Of a stretch of DNA of 64,000 nucleotides, positions 23,349-31,780 are shown piece after piece. Below the pieces are notes generated by a model that saw only the letters and a list, made by a program, of their open reading frames with translations, had not been told where the DNA came from and did no database searches. Each line of letters opens with the position of its first letter. Position 1 is the first letter of the stretch. The stretch spans positions 1-64,000 of the forward strand of contig NZ_JARRAE010000010.1 of NCBI RefSeq assembly GCF_030376605.1, given 5' to 3'. A program made the translations under genes and the position numbers. Source of the stretch: Pseudochrobactrum sp. sp1633. Its GTDB lineage: Bacteria > Pseudomonadota > Alphaproteobacteria > Rhizobiales > Rhizobiaceae.

Positions 23349-24581
23349 TCAGGCTGCTGCGAGAGCAGGGCGCTGTACTGCCGTTTCGCGGATTGGCAGA
23401 TGGATTAGCGCTGCAAACAATCCGAGAATAATGCTCAGCCACCATACGGCATCATAGCTGTTATAAAGCTGATACAGCGTGCCGCCCAGCCAGACACCGA
23501 TGAATGAACCGATCTGGTGCGAGAAAAACACCATGCCACCGAGCAGGCCGAGATGGCGTGTGCCGAACATGGTGGCCACAAGACCGTTTGTTGGCGGAAC
23601 GGTCGAGAGCCAGAGCAAACCCATCAGGCCGGAGAAGATCAGCACACTGGTACCCGATTGCGGCAGCAGGATAAAACCGGCAACCAAGATGGAGCGCAGC
23701 AGATAGATCAGCGACAACATTTTGGGCTTGGAATGGGTCTGGCCGAGAATGCCAGCACCGAGCGAGCCGATAATGTTGAAGAAACCGATCAGCGCCAGCC
23801 CCCAGACGGCATAGTGCTTATCCACGCCGATATCGGAAATATAGGCCGGAAAATGCGTGGTGATGAAGGCCACCTGAAAACCGCAGACAAAAAATCCGGC
23901 GGTCAGAAACAGATAGCTCTTATGGCTCAGGGCTTCTTTCAGGGCTTCTGCTGCTGTTTGTTTAGCGCTTGTATCCGGCATGCGGGCATTATTGGCATTG
24001 CCGCGCAAAGGAATAGCGAGCAGCGGCACCAGCAGCATGGCAACACCAAGCCAAACCAAGGCATCCGACCAGCCGAAGCGTTCAATCAGTCCCAGCGAAA
24101 TCGGTGCAAAAGCGAACATACCGGCAGAACCGGCAGCCGTGCCAAGACCAAAGACCAGACTGCGCTGTTGTGCGCTGACATGGCGGGCAAAGGCCGAGAG
24201 AATAATGCCGTAAGAACCGGCGGCAACACCAAGGCCAACCAACACACCGCCGCCGATATGCAGGGCAATCGGTGCATCGGCATTAGCCATCAGAACCAAA
24301 CCGGCGGCATAAAACAGACCCGACATTAACAGCACGCGCCATGAGCCGTATTTATCGGCAATCATGCCAAAGATCGGCTGTCCGGCACCCCAGAACAAGT
24401 TTTGCAAGGCCATTGCCAGACCATAGGTGCTGCGATCCCAGCCTTTGTCACCAATAATCGGCAGCTGGAAAAAGCCCATTGCCGAGCGCGGACCAAAGGT
24501 CAGAAACGTGATGAGACAACCGGCGATGATAATCAGCCAGGGCATGGAGGAGCTTTGATAGTTTTGCTGCGGTGTGGACAT
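23349..24581 (-). CDS. Major facilitator superfamily transporter
   Basis: A 410-aa inner-membrane secondary transporter with about twelve hydrophobic segments. The loop 2-3 signature is recognisable as GMIADKYGSWRVLL, and a cytoplasmic loop near residue 200 (NNARMPDTSAKQTAAEALKEAL) divides the two halves. The GPRSAMGFFQLPI segment near the N-terminus resembles MFS proteins related to oxalate/formate or monocarboxylate transporters, but the substrate cannot be assigned. It converges with recO with zero intergenic bases, and its start faces the nad operator region, so its promoter may lie within that 364-bp gap. Confidence 0.9.
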   Translation of the reverse strand: MSTPQQNYQSSSMPWLIIIAGCLITFLTFGPRSAMGFFQLPIIGDKGWDRSTYGLAMALQNLFWGAGQPIFGMIADKYGSWRVLLMSGLFYAAGLVLMANADAPIALHIGGGVLVGLGVAAGSYGIILSAFARHVSAQQRSLVFGLGTAAGSAGMFAFAPISLGLIERFGWSDALVWLGVAMLLVPLLAIPLRGNANNARMPDTSAKQTAAEALKEALSHKSYLFLTAGFFVCGFQVAFITTHFPAYISDIGVDKHYAVWGLALIGFFNIIGSLGAGILGQTHSKPKMLSLIYLLRSILVAGFILLPQSGTSVLIFSGLMGLLWLSTVPPTNGLVATMFGTRHLGLLGGMVFFSHQIGSFIGVWLGGTLYQLYNSYDAVWWLSIILGLFAALIHLPIRETAVQRPALAAA

Positions 24582-24764
24582 GCTGTGCGTTCTTTCAGCG
24601 GAGATGCCGGAAAAATATTGTGTAATAGTGATTACATTATTTTTTTTACGCTTGAAAGAGATTTGAGCGAAGATGCTTCGTTTGAATGCTTACGTGTTGA
24701 TTTTTATGCCTTATCAATAATTGTGAGGTTTTCGTTTTCGGATGCATTTTTGATCAGTTGATTA

Positions 24765-24787
24765 ATTTTGCTCGATTTGAGCAAAAT
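24765..24787. promoter_or_regulatory. Putative NadQ operator 1 (perfect palindrome)
   Basis: ATTTTGCTC-GATTT-GAGCAAAAT, a perfect 9-bp inverted repeat with a 5-bp spacer. It ends 6 bp before the putative -35 of the nad promoter and matches operator 2 in arm sequence and spacing. Confidence 0.75.
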
Positions 24788-24793
24788 AATTTC

Positions 24794-24822
24794 TTGTCAT
24801 GAAACTGTAATGGGAATAAAGA
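24794..24822 (+). promoter_or_regulatory. Putative promoter of nadABC-panCB
   Basis: TTGTCA (24794-24799) and TAAAGA (24817-24822) are separated by 17 bp. It lies between the two operator-like palindromes. Confidence 0.5.
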
Positions 24823-24859
24823 TTCGCGCTACGGTTTAGCCGTTTTTCTTTTGGATGAC

Positions 24860-24882
24860 ATTATGCTCTAAGTGAGCATAAT
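24860..24882. promoter_or_regulatory. Putative NadQ operator 2 (perfect palindrome)
   Basis: ATTATGCTC-TAAGT-GAGCATAAT, the same arms as operator 1 apart from one symmetric base pair, and the same 5-bp spacer. Centre-to-centre distance to operator 1 is 95 bp. It lies downstream of the putative promoter, in the leader 64 bp before nadA. Confidence 0.75.
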
Positions 24883-24945
24883 CAGAAAGAGCGGTTAAGG
24901 GGAAAACGGAGAAGGCAGCTTTATTGCTGCTTTATGAGGCAGAAC

Positions 24946-26022
24946 ATGACGACAGCCACCACCAAAGAGAACCTGAATAAAGGTGAAATCCGCAGCGCTG
25001 CAGAACGCTTTGGCGTGCTGGAAATGCCGTCTTTGGAGTTTACGCCGGAGATTGCTGCGGAAACCGAGCATCTCTATCAGCGTGTGGCGCATCATATTCC
25101 GCGCATTGAATGGCCTGCCTATGCGCCTTATGTGGCTGCGATCAACCGTATCAAAAAACAGCGCAATGCCGTTATCCTCGCCCATAATTACCAGACACCG
25201 GAAATCTTCCATTGTGTGGCGGATATTGTCGGCGACAGTTTGCAACTGGCGCGCGAAGCTGAGCGTGTGGATGCCGATATTATCGTGCAATGCGGTGTGC
25301 ATTTCATGGCGGAAACTTCAAAACTACTTAGCCCTGATAAGACTGTGCTGATACCGGATATGAAGGCAGGCTGCTCTCTGGCGGAATCCATCACCGGAGC
25401 CGATGTGCGCTTGTTGCGTGAGACCTATCCGGGTGTGCCGATTGTCACTTATGTCAACACCTCTGCCGATGTGAAGGCCGAGAGCGATATCTGCTGTACC
25501 TCTGCCAATGCCGTGCAGGTGGTGGAGAGTTTTGGTGTTGATCGTGTGCTTTGTATTCCGGATGAATTTCTGGCGCAGAATGTTGCGGCGCAAACTTCCG
25601 TTAAAGTGCTGACATGGAAAGGCCGCTGCGAGGTGCATGAGCGCTTTACGGCTGAGGAGTTGCTGGCTTACCGTGCCGCCGATCCGACTATTCAGATTGT
25701 TGCTCATCCGGAATGCCCGCCTTCAGTCGTCGCTGTGGCTGATTTCGCCGGTTCTACTAAAGGCATGATTGATTATGTGCGCAACAACCGTCCGGCAAAG
25801 GTGATGCTGGTGACAGAATGCTCGATGGCTTCCAATATTGCAGCGGAAGTACCGGATGTGGAATTCGTTAAACCGTGCAATCTCTGCCCGCATATGAAGC
25901 GTATTACTTTGCCGAAAATTCTCGACACGCTGGTGAATATGAGCGGTGAGGTTTTCGTCGATGCAACAATGGCTGCCAAAGCACGGCAGGCCGTTGAACG
26001 CATGATCAATCTGAAAAACTGA
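24946..26022 (+). CDS. nadA: Quinolinate synthase
   Basis: [4Fe-4S] enzyme that condenses iminoaspartate with dihydroxyacetone phosphate to quinolinate in de novo NAD synthesis. The ATG at 24946 has GAGG 6 nt upstream; it gives 358 aa. The three cluster cysteines fall in [19 protein letters not shown] and [24 protein letters not shown] and [12 protein letters not shown] are substrate-site motifs. An ATG four codons earlier lacks correct spacing. First gene of the nadABC-panCB run, downstream of two palindromes. Confidence 0.96.
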
Positions 26023-26029
26023 CGGCGTG

Positions 26030-27583
26030 ATGATGAGTGCAAATCACAATCAGATTATAATTGTTGGCGGGGGGCTGGCAGGGCTGTTTTGTGCGCTGCA
26101 ATTAAGCCCGCTGCCGGTGACAGTGATTGCCGCCGCACCTATCGGGCAGGGCGCATCTTCCGCATGGGCGCAGGCCGGTATTGCTGCGGCTGTTTCCTCT
26201 GATGATACGATTGAAAGTCATGTGGCCGATACGCTGGTCGCCGGTGATGGCATTGTGGATGAAGATGTCATTCGCATGATGGCCTCTTCAGCTTCAGACC
26301 GTGTGCATGATCTTCTCGAGCTCGGCGTGCCGTTCGACCGCGATCTGGCAGGGCATTTGCAGGTATCGCGCGAGGCGGCGCATAGCCATAGCCGTATCGT
26401 GCGCGTGCGTGGTGATATGGCAGGCCGTGCGATCATGCAGGCGCTGGTTGCCAAAGTGCGTGAAACACCTTCCGTCACGATCGTGGAAAATGCCACGGCC
26501 TATCAGCTGACGTCGGATCAGAAGGGTATCAGCGGTGTAACCATCCGCCGGACAGATGGTTCTGATCAAATTTTACCGGCACGACAGGTGGTGATTGCCA
26601 CCGGTGGCATCGGGCATCTCTATCAGGTGACCACCAACCCGGCAGAGGCCAGCGGTTCGGGTATCGGCATGGCTGCTGAGGCCGGTGCGCTTCTGGCGGA
26701 TATGGAATTTGTGCAGTTTCACCCGACTGCGCTGGATGTGAAGGCCGATCCGGCACCTTTGGCGACAGAGGCTCTGCGTGGTCATGGTGCGCATCTGGTC
26801 AATAAAGCCGGTGAGCGCTTCATGCTGCGTCACGATCCGGCTGCCGAAATGGCGCCGCGCGATGTGGTGGCGCGCGGTATTTATGAAGAGGTGATAAGCG
26901 GGCGCGGTGCTTATCTCGATTGCACGAAGGCAATCGGAGAGGCATTCGCGCAGGAGTTCCCGACAGTCTATGCTTATTGTCAGGCGGTTGGTATTGATCC
27001 TGCTCGCGAGCTTATTCCTGTGGTGCCAGCGGCGCATTATTTCATGGGAGGCATTCTCACGGATATGGATGGCCGCACGACGGTTGAAGGCCTGTGGGCT
27101 TGCGGGGAGGCAGCGTCAACCGGTGCGCATGGTGCCAATCGCTTAGCATCCAATTCTCTGCTGGAAGCAGTGGTGTTTGGCGCGCGTGTTGCCGAGGCGA
27201 TCAGGCAATTGCCGCAAGAAGATTACGTGCCGCAATCTGTTGTTGAGGTTCTGCCATCTGCTGACAAACCAGCTCCCGCTGAGGCCATGCAGCAATTGCG
27301 GGCGGTGATGAGCCGAAGTTTCGGCGTTATCCGCAGGCAGGATCAGATGTTGCAGGGGCTGCAACACATCCGGCAACTGGCGCGGAACAATCGCGATCCG
27401 GTTTTTGCCAATTGCTTGGCGACTGCTGAAGTGCTTGCGGTGTCCGCCTTAGCACGTAAGGAAAGCCGTGGCGGTCATTATCGCAGCGACTATCCCGAAA
27501 GCTCGGTCATCTGGCAGCATCGCTCAATGATGACTTTGCAAGACGCTCAGGAAACCTATCAAAAACTAGCGGAAACTGCCTGA
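26030..27583 (+). CDS. nadB: L-aspartate oxidase
   Basis: FAD enzyme that oxidises L-aspartate to iminoaspartate, the substrate of NadA. About 517 aa. The N-terminal Rossmann motif is IIIVGGGLAGLFCALQL; the flavoprotein-family motifs SSAWAQAGIAAA, EFVQFHPTAL and GLWACGEAASTGAHGANRLASNSL follow, with the active-site Arg in ATEALRGHG. Start: GTG-ATG-ATG in a row; I took the first ATG, eight bp after nadA. Its stop overlaps the nadC start (TGATG). NadA and NadB probably act together because iminoaspartate is unstable. Confidence 0.95.
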   Translation: MMSANHNQIIIVGGGLAGLFCALQLSPLPVTVIAAAPIGQGASSAWAQAGIAAAVSSDDTIESHVADTLVAGDGIVDEDVIRMMASSASDRVHDLLELGVPFDRDLAGHLQVSREAAHSHSRIVRVRGDMAGRAIMQALVAKVRETPSVTIVENATAYQLTSDQKGISGVTIRRTDGSDQILPARQVVIATGGIGHLYQVTTNPAEASGSGIGMAAEAGALLADMEFVQFHPTALDVKADPAPLATEALRGHGAHLVNKAGERFMLRHDPAAEMAPRDVVARGIYEEVISGRGAYLDCTKAIGEAFAQEFPTVYAYCQAVGIDPARELIPVVPAAHYFMGGILTDMDGRTTVEGLWACGEAASTGAHGANRLASNSLLEAVVFGARVAEAIRQLPQEDYVPQSVVEVLPSADKPAPAEAMQQLRAVMSRSFGVIRRQDQMLQGLQHIRQLARNNRDPVFANCLATAEVLAVSALARKESRGGHYRSDYPESSVIWQHRSMMTLQDAQETYQKLAETA

Positions 27584-28446
27584 TGAAAACTGCTTATCCT
27601 TCTGTTTTGCCGCGCCCGCTGGTTGAAGATGCCGTGCGCAATGCGCTGCTCGAAGATCTGGGACGTGCCGGAGATATTACCAGCCATGCGACGATTGCCC
27701 CTGATAAACAGGCGACTGCCTTGCTGACCAGCCGTGAAGACGGCGTGGTGGCCGGTGTTGATTTTATCCGCGCGGCCTTCACGCAGATTGACCCGACACT
27801 GCAAATTACAATCGCTGTGGAAGACAGCACGCGCATCAAAGCAGGGCAGGAGATCGCCCGTATCAGCGGCAATGCCCGTTCTATTTTGTCAGCTGAACGT
27901 GTGGCGCTTAATTATCTCATGGTGCTGTCCGGCATTGCGACTTACACCGCACGCTTTGCAGATAAGATTGCCCATACGCAGGCCAAAATCTGTGACACCC
28001 GCAAAACCATGCCCGGCATGCGGGCTTTGGCCAAATATGCGGTGCGTTGCGGCGGTGGTGCCAATCACCGTTTTGGCCTCGATGATGCGGTGTTGATTAA
28101 AGACAACCACATTGCCGTTGCAGGCGGGGTCAAACAGGCGATTGAAGCCGCACGCAGCTTTGTCGGACATCTGGTGAAGATCGAAGTTGAGGTCGATACG
28201 TTGGAACAGATGGCAGAAGCGCTGTCTGTGCAGGCGGATGTGATTCTTCTTGATAATATGTCGCCGGAAACCCTTGTTAAAGCTGTTGAAATTAATGCCG
28301 GACGCGCAAAGCTTGAGGCCTCAGGCAATATTAATTTCGACACGGTTAAGGCTGTGGCCGAGACGGGTGTCGACTATATCTCAACCTCGAAAATCACAAT
28401 GTCTGCACCGACACTTGATGTCGGGCTGGATATTATCATCACTTGA
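27583..28446 (+). CDS. nadC: Nicotinate-nucleotide pyrophosphorylase (quinolinate phosphoribosyltransferase)
   Basis: Converts quinolinate and PRPP to nicotinate mononucleotide, the third step of de novo NAD synthesis. The 287-aa product has the N-terminal DLGRAGDITSHATI, the central CDTRKTMPGMRALAKYAVRCGGG with substrate-binding Arg and Lys, and IEVEVDTLEQ and ASGNINFDTVKA in the barrel. Translation is coupled to nadB through a one-base overlap. It completes nadABC; panC starts 39 bp later. Confidence 0.96.
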   Translation: MKTAYPSVLPRPLVEDAVRNALLEDLGRAGDITSHATIAPDKQATALLTSREDGVVAGVDFIRAAFTQIDPTLQITIAVEDSTRIKAGQEIARISGNARSILSAERVALNYLMVLSGIATYTARFADKIAHTQAKICDTRKTMPGMRALAKYAVRCGGGANHRFGLDDAVLIKDNHIAVAGGVKQAIEAARSFVGHLVKIEVEVDTLEQMAEALSVQADVILLDNMSPETLVKAVEINAGRAKLEASGNINFDTVKAVAETGVDYISTSKITMSAPTLDVGLDIIIT

Positions 28447-28485
28447 TGAGATAGAGTGCGCACTGGTTTTTCAGGGGATGATGAT

Positions 28486-29343
28486 ATGCAACTGATCCGC
28501 ACAATTGCAGATTTACGCACGGCTTTGAGAGCTGAGCGAAGTGCAGGCAAGACTGTCGGCTTCGTGCCGACAATGGGTTATCTGCATATCGGTCATCTGA
28601 CACTGGCAAAGCATAGCCAGTTGAATTGTGATGTCACAGTTGTTTCGATTTTCGTCAATCCCACGCAGTTTTCACCCAATGAAGATCTGGCGCAATATCC
28701 GCGTAATCTGCCGCATGATCTGAAACTGCTCGAAGAGCAGGGCGTGGATTATGTTTTCGCACCTGAGGTGGATGAGATGTATCCGGATGGCAGCGGCAAA
28801 ACATCGACCTATGTTGATGTTGGTGATCTGTCTTCCATCCTGATGGGGGCATTGCGCCCCAATCATTTCCGTGGCGTGGCAACGGTGGTGAGCAAGCTGT
28901 TCAATATCGTGCAGCCGGACAAAGCTTTCTTCGGCGAGAAGGATTATCAGCAGCTTGCCGTCATCAAGCGTATGGTGACTGATCTCAATCAGCCGGTTGA
29001 AGTCTTCGGTGTGCCGACAGTGCGCGAACCGGATGGTCTTGCCTGCTCATCGCGTAACAGTCTTTTGAGTGCGGAAGACCGTGCCGCAGCCATTATCCTG
29101 CCGCAGGCAATGCAATTGGCACAAACACTGGTGGATCAGGGCGAACGCTCGGTTTCAGTATTGCACCAAGCGGTGCTTGATAAGTTACAGCAGGAAGCAC
29201 GGGGTGAGGTTGAGGCCGTGGATATCCGTGATGCGGAAACGCTGGCTGAAACCGCAGAGCTGCTCACCGCACCGGCGGTACTATTGCTGACAGTACGCTT
29301 TGGGAAAACCCGTTTGATCGACCAGCATGTGCTGCGGTTTTAA
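28486..29343 (+). CDS. panC: Pantothenate synthetase
   Basis: ATP-dependent ligation of pantoate and beta-alanine to pantothenate, the CoA precursor. From the ATG at 28486 (AGGGG upstream) it is 285 aa. The nucleotide-binding PTMGYLHIGHLTL has the HxGH-type motif; the VSIFVNPTQFSPNEDL, FFGEKDYQQLAVI and EPDGLACSSRNSLL motifs follow. An in-frame start at 28456 lacks conservation. It follows nadC closely and is followed by panB after 22 bp, so pantothenate and NAD synthesis appear to share a transcript. Confidence 0.96.
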   Translation: MQLIRTIADLRTALRAERSAGKTVGFVPTMGYLHIGHLTLAKHSQLNCDVTVVSIFVNPTQFSPNEDLAQYPRNLPHDLKLLEEQGVDYVFAPEVDEMYPDGSGKTSTYVDVGDLSSILMGALRPNHFRGVATVVSKLFNIVQPDKAFFGEKDYQQLAVIKRMVTDLNQPVEVFGVPTVREPDGLACSSRNSLLSAEDRAAAIILPQAMQLAQTLVDQGERSVSVLHQAVLDKLQQEARGEVEAVDIRDAETLAETAELLTAPAVLLLTVRFGKTRLIDQHVLRF

Positions 29344-29365
29344 CCTCTAATCAAAGGAAACGGCC

Positions 29366-30175
29366 ATGAGTGTTCAGAAACAGATCCGCCGCATTACCGT
29401 GCCGGAAATCCGTGCCCGCAAAGGCGGTGTGCCGCTGGTTTCACTCACAGCCTATCATGCGCACACGGCTGCCATTGTTGACCGCTATGCGGATTTTATG
29501 CTGGTGGGCGACAGTGTCGGCATGGTGATGCATGGCATGGAATCGACCATCGGCGTGTCTCTGGAAATGATGATTATGCACGGGCAGGCGGTGATGCGCG
29601 GTTCGTCCCGTGCGCTGGTTGTGGTGGATATGCCTTTCGGCTCCTATGAGGAAAGTCCGCAGGCCGCCTTCCGCAATGCAGCGCGGATCATGGCGGAAAC
29701 TGGCTGTGGTGCGGTCAAGCTTGAGGGCGGCGTGCAGATGGCCGAGACAATTAGCTTTCTGACCAAGCGCGGTATTCCGGTGCTGGCACATATTGGCCTC
29801 ACACCGCAGGCTGTGCATGTGATGGGCGGTTATAAAGTGCAGGGACGAGATCAGGCGTTGTGGGATTTGATTAAGCAGGATGCGCAGGCGGTTGCTGATG
29901 CCGGTGCTTTCGGCATTGTGCTGGAAGGCATTGTCGAGCCGCTGGCACGTGAAATTACAGCGCAGGTTGCGGTACCAACCATTGGTATCGGCGCATCAGC
30001 AGAGTGTGACGGGCAAATTCTGGTGCTGGAAGATATGCTCGGCCTGAATGACAAGCCTGCCAAATTCGTCCGCCAATATGGAGCCATTGGTGCGGTCATT
30101 GACGAGGCGGTGAAAGCCTATGCGGAAGATGTGAAAAGCCGCAGTTTTCCTGACGAACGGCACATCTATCGCTAA
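29366..30175 (+). CDS. panB: 3-methyl-2-oxobutanoate hydroxymethyltransferase
   Basis: Adds the hydroxymethyl group of 5,10-methylene-THF to ketoisovalerate, giving ketopantoate. The 269-aa protein has the TIM-barrel motifs [24 protein letters not shown] with its Mg-binding Asp, [20 protein letters not shown]-like [16 protein letters not shown] and the catalytic Glu in [19 protein letters not shown] precedes the ATG. Last gene of the nadABC-panCB run; it ends 5 bp from the convergent nadQ stop. Confidence 0.96.
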
Positions 30176-30180
30176 ATCAC

Positions 30181-31164
30181 CTATCGCTGAGACAGCGTTA
30201 CCCTTAAGCCCGGAGCAGGGCGCTCTTCCAGAACCGCACGGCGGAAACGGTAGAGCGCTGCCGGACGTCCGCGCAACTGGCTGAGGCTGGCACCGGTCGG
30301 CTCCACCAGCTCGGCATTTTCCACGAGACGGCGGAAATTCTGCTTGTGCAGATGACGGCCGGAGATTGCCTCAACGGTTTCTTGCAAGGCGGTGAGGGTA
30401 AAGCAATCCGGCATGATTTCAAAAATAACCGGACGATATTTCAGCTTGGCGCGCAGCCGCGCAATCGCGGTGGCGAGAATACGGCGATGGTCAAAAACCA
30501 TAGCACGACCCGTATGGCGCTGTAATTCTTCAAGCTGCGGTGTTGCGCTGACCGTGCCGTCAATCGTAGCCTCACGCACAAGTCCCGCTTCATAAAGCAG
30601 TTCATAGCGCTCCAGCACACGCTCTTCATCCCATTGAATCCCATCAGTACCGAAGGCAAGGCGCAATCTTGTGAGGCGCGGCAACAGATGCAAATCATAG
30701 GCCGGGCTGCTGCGTTTGTCGCCCTGCGCCCATTCGCGCAACGCAGGCAGAATAAGCGTGTCGATCAGCGCAGGCTTGCCATTACGCCAGTCTTCCCACG
30801 GCAAAAAATCATACCAATAGCGCCAGCCGTCATTGTTTTGCTCTGCATCAAACCTTGTCAGTGCCAGATAGCCGACTGAGATCACATGGGTATCGCCTGC
30901 GGGTGCTGTGGATTTGGCACGGCCACGATCGCCGAATGTGTAGAGCTGCTCCACATAGCCAAGCCGCAAGGCTGTCTGCGCTTCAACCCACAGACGCAAA
31001 CCGGCTTCCAGTGTGCGGTGCTTCAACGGGTCAAAGCGGCCATAAGGCAAGGAGAGGACATCAGATAGCTCATAATCCGCACATAGAATGACCGGATTGT
31101 TTTTGTGGATTGTAACAATAGCGGCACTGAGGCCAACCTCAACAGCAGAAGAAATATCAGCCAT
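30181..31164 (-). CDS. nadQ: NAD biosynthesis regulator NadQ (COG4111 type)
   Basis: A 327-aa protein that I recognise as the alphaproteobacterial NAD regulator NadQ. The N-terminal half (about 20-210) is a Nudix-like domain (AAIVTIHKNNPVILC and HRTLEAGLRLWVEAQTALRLGYVEQLYTFGD regions) lacking a full catalytic Nudix box. The C-terminal part (about 240-320) is a winged-helix-like DNA-binding domain (FTLTALQETVEAISGRHLHK, NFRRLVE, then RGRPAALYRFRR), a layout like that of NrtR. It overlaps the HD gene upstream by 8 bp. The likely targets are the two TGCTC-N5-GAGCA palindromes before nadA, 5.3 kb away; the ligand is unknown from sequence. Confidence 0.85.
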   Translation of the reverse strand: MADISSAVEVGLSAAIVTIHKNNPVILCADYELSDVLSLPYGRFDPLKHRTLEAGLRLWVEAQTALRLGYVEQLYTFGDRGRAKSTAPAGDTHVISVGYLALTRFDAEQNNDGWRYWYDFLPWEDWRNGKPALIDTLILPALREWAQGDKRSSPAYDLHLLPRLTRLRLAFGTDGIQWDEERVLERYELLYEAGLVREATIDGTVSATPQLEELQRHTGRAMVFDHRRILATAIARLRAKLKYRPVIFEIMPDCFTLTALQETVEAISGRHLHKQNFRRLVENAELVEPTGASLSQLRGRPAALYRFRRAVLEERPAPGLRVTLSQR

Positions 31165-31780
31165 GAATCTGCGCCTCCAGTTCCTGAAAGCGCTTCATGA
31201 AAGCCTGTTCTATCTCTGCGGTCGGCAGTGGTGACAAATCAAAATCTCCGGCATGAAAACCACGTGGTCGCCCGAAAAACTCTGCCGCTTCCGCTGTGCT
31301 GAAACCGGCAAGCTCCGTGGCTTCAAAATAGGCAGAAACAATGTCTGCTTTCTTAATGGCCTTTTTCAATGCGACTGGCATGGTGGCAGGCAGCGAAAAG
31401 CGCAGGTGAATGGCCGTTTCCAGCCGTGCTTCAATCTGTTTGTAAGCACCGCCCATCACGGCCTTGAAAGGCGAGATCATGTCACCGATCACATATTCCG
31501 GCGCATCATGCAGCAGTGCCAGCATTTGCTCTTTATGTGTGGCGGCCGTATTCTGCCTGCAAAAAATCTGTTCAACCAGCAGCGAATGCTGCGCTACGGA
31601 ATAGGCATGGTCACCGTGCGTCTGGCCATTCCAGCGGGCAACACGCGCAAGCCCGTGGGCAATGTCGCTGATCTCAATATCCAGCGGCGATGGGTCAAGC
31701 AAATCCAGCCTGCGGCCGGACAGCATACGCTGCCATGCACGAACCGGTTTTGTGGTCGCTCTGCCGCCGGATATCGCCAT
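31157..31780 (-). CDS. HD-domain hydrolase (YfbR-like)
   Basis: A 207-aa metal-dependent phosphohydrolase of the HD superfamily. Candidate ligands are H65 (SVAQHSLLV), H91-D92 (ALLHDAPEYVIGD) and D147 (KKADIVSAYFEA), spaced as in YfbR 5'-deoxynucleotidases; the HDAPEYVIGDMISPFK segment is characteristic. The nucleotide substrate is not proved. It overlaps ygfZ by one base (TAATG) and nadQ by 8 bp, so the three are a tight operon. A nucleotidase beside a NAD regulator fits nucleotide economy, but this is inference. Confidence 0.87.
   Translation of the reverse strand: MAISGGRATTKPVRAWQRMLSGRRLDLLDPSPLDIEISDIAHGLARVARWNGQTHGDHAYSVAQHSLLVEQIFCRQNTAATHKEQMLALLHDAPEYVIGDMISPFKAVMGGAYKQIEARLETAIHLRFSLPATMPVALKKAIKKADIVSAYFEATELAGFSTAEAAEFFGRPRGFHAGDFDLSPLPTAEIEQAFMKRFQELEAQIHG

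Follow-up and report, generated by a model that had tools for sequence, protein, structure and literature searches.

Repression from two operators by looping is known from the Lac and lambda repressors, and in other roadblock systems polymerase is stalled at a distance of about 14 bp. Intrinsic terminators consist of a short GC stem and then a T-run, with a usual release point 7–9 nt past the stem, and early terminators are common in leaders. NadQ is reportedly the subject of a paper by Minazzato et al. 2022 (J Struct Biol 214:107917), which belongs to the literature on the alpha- and betaproteobacterial regulon.

The closest described system is the NadQ (COG4111) regulon of alpha- and betaproteobacteria, with which the locus studied here shares the operator consensus (published as ttATRCTCannntGAGYATaa), the regulator family, the nadABC target and the clustering of nadQ with nad genes (PMC5343134). 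The second, bracketing operator and the hairpin with T-run ahead of the operator, both present at our locus, are not described in the parts of that source drawn on here (PMC5343134).

Roadblock repression offers the other close comparison, as represented by LacI constructs (PMC4132739) and by C.Kpn2I (PMC6237814), in which an operator past the transcription start is able to stop elongation, as is predicted for the leader operator here; CcpA and CodY are also named as roadblock repressors (PMC4132739). In E. coli, as far as the consulted sections of that work go, a LacI roadblock placed 30 bp from the start of weaker promoters let more polymerase through than a distant roadblock, a close roadblock inhibited more when the promoter was very strong, and most of the stalled polymerase was removed by Mfd. 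Retained sigma blocking Mfd was raised as an option, with modelling favouring easier dislodgement of the roadblock, and reduced termination was judged, again by modelling, not to explain the 30-bp result, which counts against the coupling considered below; the sequence upstream of a roadblock could affect termination (PMC4132739). For C.Kpn2I, the roadblock is given as 20 bp past the start with a stalled RNA of ∼20 nt, and a template truncated at +43 is described as being without the site, so that the exact stall distance is uncertain in the sections used (PMC6237814). In these systems, as there described, release is mainly by Mfd, or passage is aided by GreA, whereas here a terminator-like hairpin adjoins the operator.

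The window (the whole stretch of DNA analysed, 64,000 nucleotides) contains the following nad and pan genes together with a regulator gene:

24934–26022, + strand: nadA, quinolinate synthase (Pfam PF02445, E=5.6e-112)
26027–27583, + strand: nadB, L-aspartate oxidase-type flavoprotein (Pfam FAD_binding_2 and Succ_DH_flav_C; named from family and position)
27583–28446, + strand: nadC, quinolinate phosphoribosyltransferase (Pfam QRPTase_N and QRPTase_C)
28456–29343, + strand: panC, pantoate ligase (Pfam), close behind nadC and possibly co-transcribed
29366–30175, + strand: panB, ketopantoate hydroxymethyltransferase (Pfam), possibly co-transcribed
30181–31164, − strand: nadQ-type regulator (NrtR_WHD, E=1.2e-19; PDB 7q91, E=3.2e-74)

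The regulator has a C-terminal NrtR-like winged helix (NrtR_WHD, residues 248–307), and where the family has a Nudix-like N-terminal domain it gave no Pfam match at 0.001, yet the alignment with the 'NADQ transcription factor' of PDB 7q91 spans residues 34–326. An earlier reading of this DNA, made from the sequence only, had placed the nadQ-type gene 5.3 kb away and convergent with the operon; it lies 5.3 kb from the leader operator (site 2, below), on the minus strand, and converges on panB. The start of nadQ is overlapped by a YfbR-like HD-domain gene (31157–31780, − strand), a homologue of which lies near nadQ in most of the loci where nadQ is seen, and the two genes may be functionally linked. 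With panC and panB directly behind nadC (28446–29366), NadQ control may reach pantothenate synthesis, and among the long loci the nadC-panC-panB order is found only in L005, L006 and L007.

Ahead of nadA the following elements were located:

24765–24787, no strand assigned: site 1, upstream NadQ-like operator, ATTTTGCTC-GATTT-GAGCAAAAT, 14/16 consensus positions
24794–24822, + strand: predicted nadA promoter, TTGTCA (24794–24799)-N17-TAAAGA (24817–24822), from the sequence and the layout in relatives
24831–24843, + strand: terminator-like hairpin, ACGGT-TTA-GCCGT, weak (−4.5 kcal/mol), at the same place in most relatives
24844–24852, + strand: T-run, TTTTCTTTT, behind the hairpin, its end 8 nt short of the 21-bp operator core
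24860–24882, no strand assigned: site 2, predicted leader NadQ operator, ATTATGCTC-TAAGT-GAGCATAAT, 16/16 scored consensus positions

Sites 1 and 2 are exact palindromes, 95 bp apart, with the predicted TTGTCA-17-TAAAGA promoter between them and site 1 lying 6 bp upstream of the −35 box. On the palindromes, their spacing and the promoter the sequence-only reading was right; the hairpin and T-run (24831–24852) that stand between promoter and site 2 were absent from it. The joint palindrome pattern, allowing up to three mismatches, gave two matches in the window; 100 shuffles averaged 0.14 matches, and none of them reached two. Across the genome (3.89 Mb) the same pattern found sites 1 and 2 without mismatch and nine other places with three mismatches each, about the chance number for 3.9 Mb when the shuffle rate of the window is extrapolated, and this genome-wide scan returned no further NadQ targets beyond chance. 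A separate palindrome, TGTAATAGTGATTACA at 24621–24636, stands just ahead of the divergent MFS gene (start 24581, − strand) and is kept in L005 and L086 with one central base changed; it may serve a different regulator as operator.

Sites 1 and 2 are probably bound by NadQ. Compared with the published consensus, site 2 agrees throughout and site 1 at all but two positions, a NadQ homologue is encoded nearby, and the presence of operator and regulator coincides across genomes. We sought nadQ in 49 hand-picked (non-random) genomes and examined the region upstream of nadA in 42 (those of G022, G064, G047, G008, G115, G140 and G106 were left out). An operator precedes nadA in 34/34 nadQ-positive genomes, divided evenly (17 each) between the common nadA type and a second type, and in 0/8 nadQ-negative ones (G146, G109, G058, G099, G048, G141 and the genomes of L008 and L015). 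The sequence-only reading had attributed the palindromes to NadQ, an attribution against which their loss before nadA in nadQ-bearing relatives would have counted; the attribution is now likely, with one contrary genome, G164. Its locus (L193) has an operator pair and a hairpin before nadA, matching a hairpin-plus-operator model at E=1.7e-12, and nadQ was not found in the assembly (430 contigs, 96% complete) at E≤0.001. The gene may be missing from this incomplete assembly, or another binder may act there; nadQ was also not found in G325 and G352, which are marginal matches to the model (E about 0.006). Control of nadABC by NadQ is, on these comparisons, well supported and known in kind, and the locus would be a new member of the NadQ regulon.

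To compare the leader among relatives we used 88 representative loci with less than 85% mutual identity over the last 60 bp plus the operator. They come from 110 nadA loci, of which seven without an operator (L008, L015, L081 and L091–L094) left 103 operator-bearing loci, and two duplicates and 13 near-duplicates were then dropped. At the place of the promoter the relatives have CTTGnn-N17-(C)TAnnT, a promoter being recognised in only 40 of the 88 loci, and the distance from promoter end to operator is 37–39 nt in 30 of these 40 matches. Judging from the position of the −10 box, transcription is expected to start near 24829, ∼31 nt before the operator, which would put site 2 at about +32 to +54 in the RNA. 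A promoter embedded in the operator (ATGACA-16-CATAAT, 24855–24882) was rejected as a general feature because the composition ahead of the operator in the 88 loci is not −35-like. The search for known RNA families in 24300–25300 yielded a single microRNA match below threshold (E=0.67), which we attribute to chance.

From the two sites the sequence-only reading had proposed two-site repression by NadQ, with a same-face spacing suited to looping. The bracketed promoter and the likely role of NadQ stand, and the pair is present in 6/6 genomes of the genus, Pseudochrobactrum, having upstream sequence (a seventh, G731, has none and was left out), but the spacing is not conserved. It is 95 bp in G000 (the window genome) and G096, 153 bp in G727, G728 and G730, and 197 bp in G729; taking 10.5 bp per turn, the three spacings correspond to 9.05, 14.6 and 18.8 turns. 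The helical register is thus not kept, three congeners being about half a turn out. Second sites occur within 300 bp in 43/88 representative loci, at 32–259 bp, and far above chance (41/88 within 160 bp as against 0.1 in base-shuffled sequence). Over the 43 paired loci no helical phase was found (Rayleigh p 0.07–0.21 for periods of 10.0–11.0 bp). We looked at another 28 loci of the family that share this nadA type (L087–L114): a second site matching at least 13/16 positions occurs only in L111, and four of the 28 have no operator.

These results do not favour phased looping. A loop closed by contact between NadQ dimers on the two sites, with the promoter inside it, would suit the two good sites at 9.05 turns in the window genome and G096, and operators on either side of the promoter are shared with the Lac and lambda repressors; with neither spacing nor phase kept, with 14.6 and 18.8 turns in four congeners and a second site in only one of the 28 further loci, we consider such a loop very improbable. 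Just as improbable, in our estimate, is that site 1 serves the divergent MFS gene and not nadA. The start of that gene is 184 bp from site 1 on its other side, as this explanation would have it, but only 6 bp separate site 1 from the −35 box of nadA, the MFS gene comes with its own palindrome (24621–24636, also in L005 and L086), and relatives with a divergent MFS gene (L006, L007, L089 and L090) are without site 1.

The hairpin and T-run ahead of the leader operator are, in our opinion, the part of the arrangement worth following, as a unit with that operator. In the 60 nt that lead up to the operator, a strict scan (stem of 4 bp or more, at least three GC pairs, and at least five T in the next 10) found a GC hairpin with T-run in 63/88 loci, its stem ending 14–18 nt ahead of the operator in 62 of the 63. 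The controls gave 11/88 in the next 60 bp upstream, 2/88 downstream and 19/88 on the other strand, and shuffles gave a mean of 10.05, or 1.85 when a gap of 14–19 was demanded. Under a relaxed scan (gap of 10–22 nt, at least three T) the hairpin is found in 77/88, the 11 misses being L005, L033, L035, L047, L050, L052, L054, L071, L074, L076 and L079. A GC-rich hairpin followed immediately by a T-run on the transcribed strand, the mark of an intrinsic terminator, is thus present in 63/88 loci by the strict and 77/88 by the relaxed scan. The resemblance to intrinsic terminators and leader attenuators lies in the short GC stem and T-run; the difference is that here the transcript is predicted to begin with this structure, which lies beside an operator.

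The position of the hairpin does not depend on the T criterion, as the best GC hairpin regardless of T ends 13–19 nt before the operator in 73/84 loci compared with 15/75 in the control stretch; T-runs are poor (four T or fewer) in 20 of the 73 loci with a hairpin at that gap. Furthermore, T makes up 49–89% at each position from −16 to −9 before the operator in the 88 loci, and folding energy peaks at the place of the hairpin (mean −8.4 kcal/mol; windows elsewhere gave −1.5 to −3.4 kcal/mol). When only hairpins no more than 150 nt from a start codon are counted, nadA has one in 62/88 loci, compared with 5/82 at nadB, 9/60 at nadC, 10/49 at MFS genes and 7/38 at nadQ. At loci whose upstream MFS gene is divergent, the hairpin cannot be the terminator of a preceding gene, and 19/22 such loci carry it (relaxed scan).

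Stem sequence varies among the loci and pairing tends to persist. In an alignment (A1) of 60 of the 88 representatives, chosen mostly for a visible hairpin, the covariation score was 0.240 as against 0.106 (sd 0.017) when shuffled, 0/500 shuffles being as high, and there were 26 cells with both-sided change compared with 7.3 in shuffles. The number of pairs with both-sided change, 5 against 3.6, was not above shuffles (81/500 as high). Sliding the register by −1 gave 27 both-sided cells, but with pairing of 51% instead of 82% and a score of 0.120. RNAalifold on A1 did not call the hairpin stem and returned only the operator palindrome.

Outside the order, 13/26 operator-bearing nadA loci have a hairpin at a gap of 13–19, near-duplicates included; these loci were among 30 class-level loci drawn from 62 matching genomes of 289, four of which are without nadA (L117, L132, L135 and L142). 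The hairpin-plus-operator model matched 127/249 genomes of the order at E≤0.01, a figure that is not a hairpin count, as the weaker matches include reverse-strand matches to the palindrome; the best 30 matches all lie before nadA. We found no earlier report of a hairpin at a NadQ operator among the openly licensed papers searched, which does not establish its absence from print.

In the window itself the hairpin is weak, with a z of −1.2 and 32/200 shuffles as good. Moreover, in 4/6 congeners it is split by an insertion, and the strict scan finds it in 0/4 of these. The extra 58 or 102 bp of the congeners is a palindromic element that interrupts the leader hairpin at its loop region (L145–L148, L148 being the same record as L005); when the insertion-bearing L145 was folded, the old arms were not re-paired at minimum energy. 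Five congener genomes each carry one to three copies of the exact core pattern of the element, and G000 carries none. Because the window hairpin is weak and that of four congeners is split, the case for the hairpin unit rests on the order and not on this strain. One may speculate that the extra site 1 beside the −35 box lessens the need for a leader unit in this genus.

We suggest tentatively, with a probability of about 0.4, that the leader operator is a roadblock paired with a promoter-proximal terminator and coupled to NadQ. Site 1, abutting the −35 box, should hinder binding of RNA polymerase, and site 2, in the transcribed leader at ∼+32, should block polymerase soon after initiation. The leader operator, the short GC hairpin and the T-run would then act as one unit in most of the order, with the stem end ∼16 nt ahead of the operator. 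The RNA would begin with the hairpin, followed by a U-tract at about +16 to +23 and the operator at ∼+32. Once stopped by bound NadQ, polymerase would be positioned at or close to the U-tract, the hairpin would stand at its exit, and the short transcript would be released, preventing either leaky passage or a blocked promoter. With NadQ off the DNA, polymerase would pass the weak terminator and nadABC would be expressed.

The 3′ end of the NadQ-stalled RNA is expected at 0 to ∼16 nt upstream of the operator, with an uncertainty of some 15 nt, a range taken from the C.Kpn2I RNA of ∼20 nt and the ∼14 bp distance of other roadblocks. It would contain both the T-run and the usual release point 7–9 nt after the stem. 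A conditional terminator formed jointly by NadQ and the hairpin would thus agree with the observed gap.

Whether hairpin and operator are coupled bears on two other explanations of the hairpin. In one, it would be a weak terminator or attenuator, active at all times, that fixes basal nadABC expression independently of NadQ, which would repress separately. The hairpin and T-run look terminator-like on their own and leaders often carry early terminators, and this explanation is nonetheless unlikely, as it does not predict an operator gap that stays near-constant while the distance to site 1 varies: in the 25 paired loci with a strict hairpin, the hairpin-to-operator gap has an sd of 1.6 nt, and site 1 lies anywhere from 3 to 50 nt from the hairpin (sd 14.1). 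Nor does it predict the joint absence of hairpin and operator without the regulator. In six nadQ-less genomes of the common nadA type neither an operator nor a hairpin with at least five T was found, one of the six passing the hairpin scan at four T with a doubtful start codon.

The other explanation, that the hairpin stabilises the 5′ end of the nadA mRNA and owes its place to the layout of promoter and operator, we also rate as quite unlikely. It draws on evidence against coupling, namely that the stem starts 5–10 nt after the −10 box in 33/36 loci with a hairpin and a recognised promoter, which would make the hairpin 5′-terminal and its promoter distance as constant as its operator distance; with the −10 distance near-fixed, a constant gap to the operator could follow from the promoter layout. 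Against this, the stabiliser leaves the T-run unexplained, and the hairpin stays with the leader operator both in paired loci of varied site-1 distance and in three loci whose promoter is farther away. The gap has an sd of 0.83 compared with 5.45 for the distance from −10 box to operator, a contrast that rests on those three loci. In view of the near-constant promoter distance (33/36) and of the modelling in PMC4132739, we lowered our confidence in the coupled mechanism and in the broader proposition below, and raised that in the stabiliser.

A second, diverged nadA lineage of the same family (L150–L169; L165, with no nadA in its stretch, was dropped) has two operators 26–35 bp apart and is hairpin-less in 17/17 loci. 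nadQ lies directly upstream in 16 of these 17 operator-bearing loci. By eye, site 1 stands between TTGACA and the −10 box in most of them, and in such a position occlusion of the promoter should suffice.

A broader proposition, that NadQ control of nadA in the Hyphomicrobiales and some other Alphaproteobacteria works as a repressor-gated intrinsic terminator, in which the operator holds polymerase and the stalled complex is released, appears to us doubtful and somewhat unlikely. If true, ligand-controlled DNA binding would become conditional termination, and the unit would be a widely conserved natural pairing of roadblock and terminator. A repressor bound past the start must stop polymerase and then dispose of it, and a hairpin and U-tract beside the operator could free the stalled polymerase in cis, a design that could be reused. 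Point mutations in a short leader would then allow tests of how a large bacterial order controls its de novo NAD synthesis.

The leader RNA may also fold in another way. The 3′ arm of the hairpin and the T-run can pair downstream of site 2 (24831–24900), enclosing the operator in a longer RNA stem, and the L086 and L005 leaders fold similarly to this alternative stem of the window (single folds).
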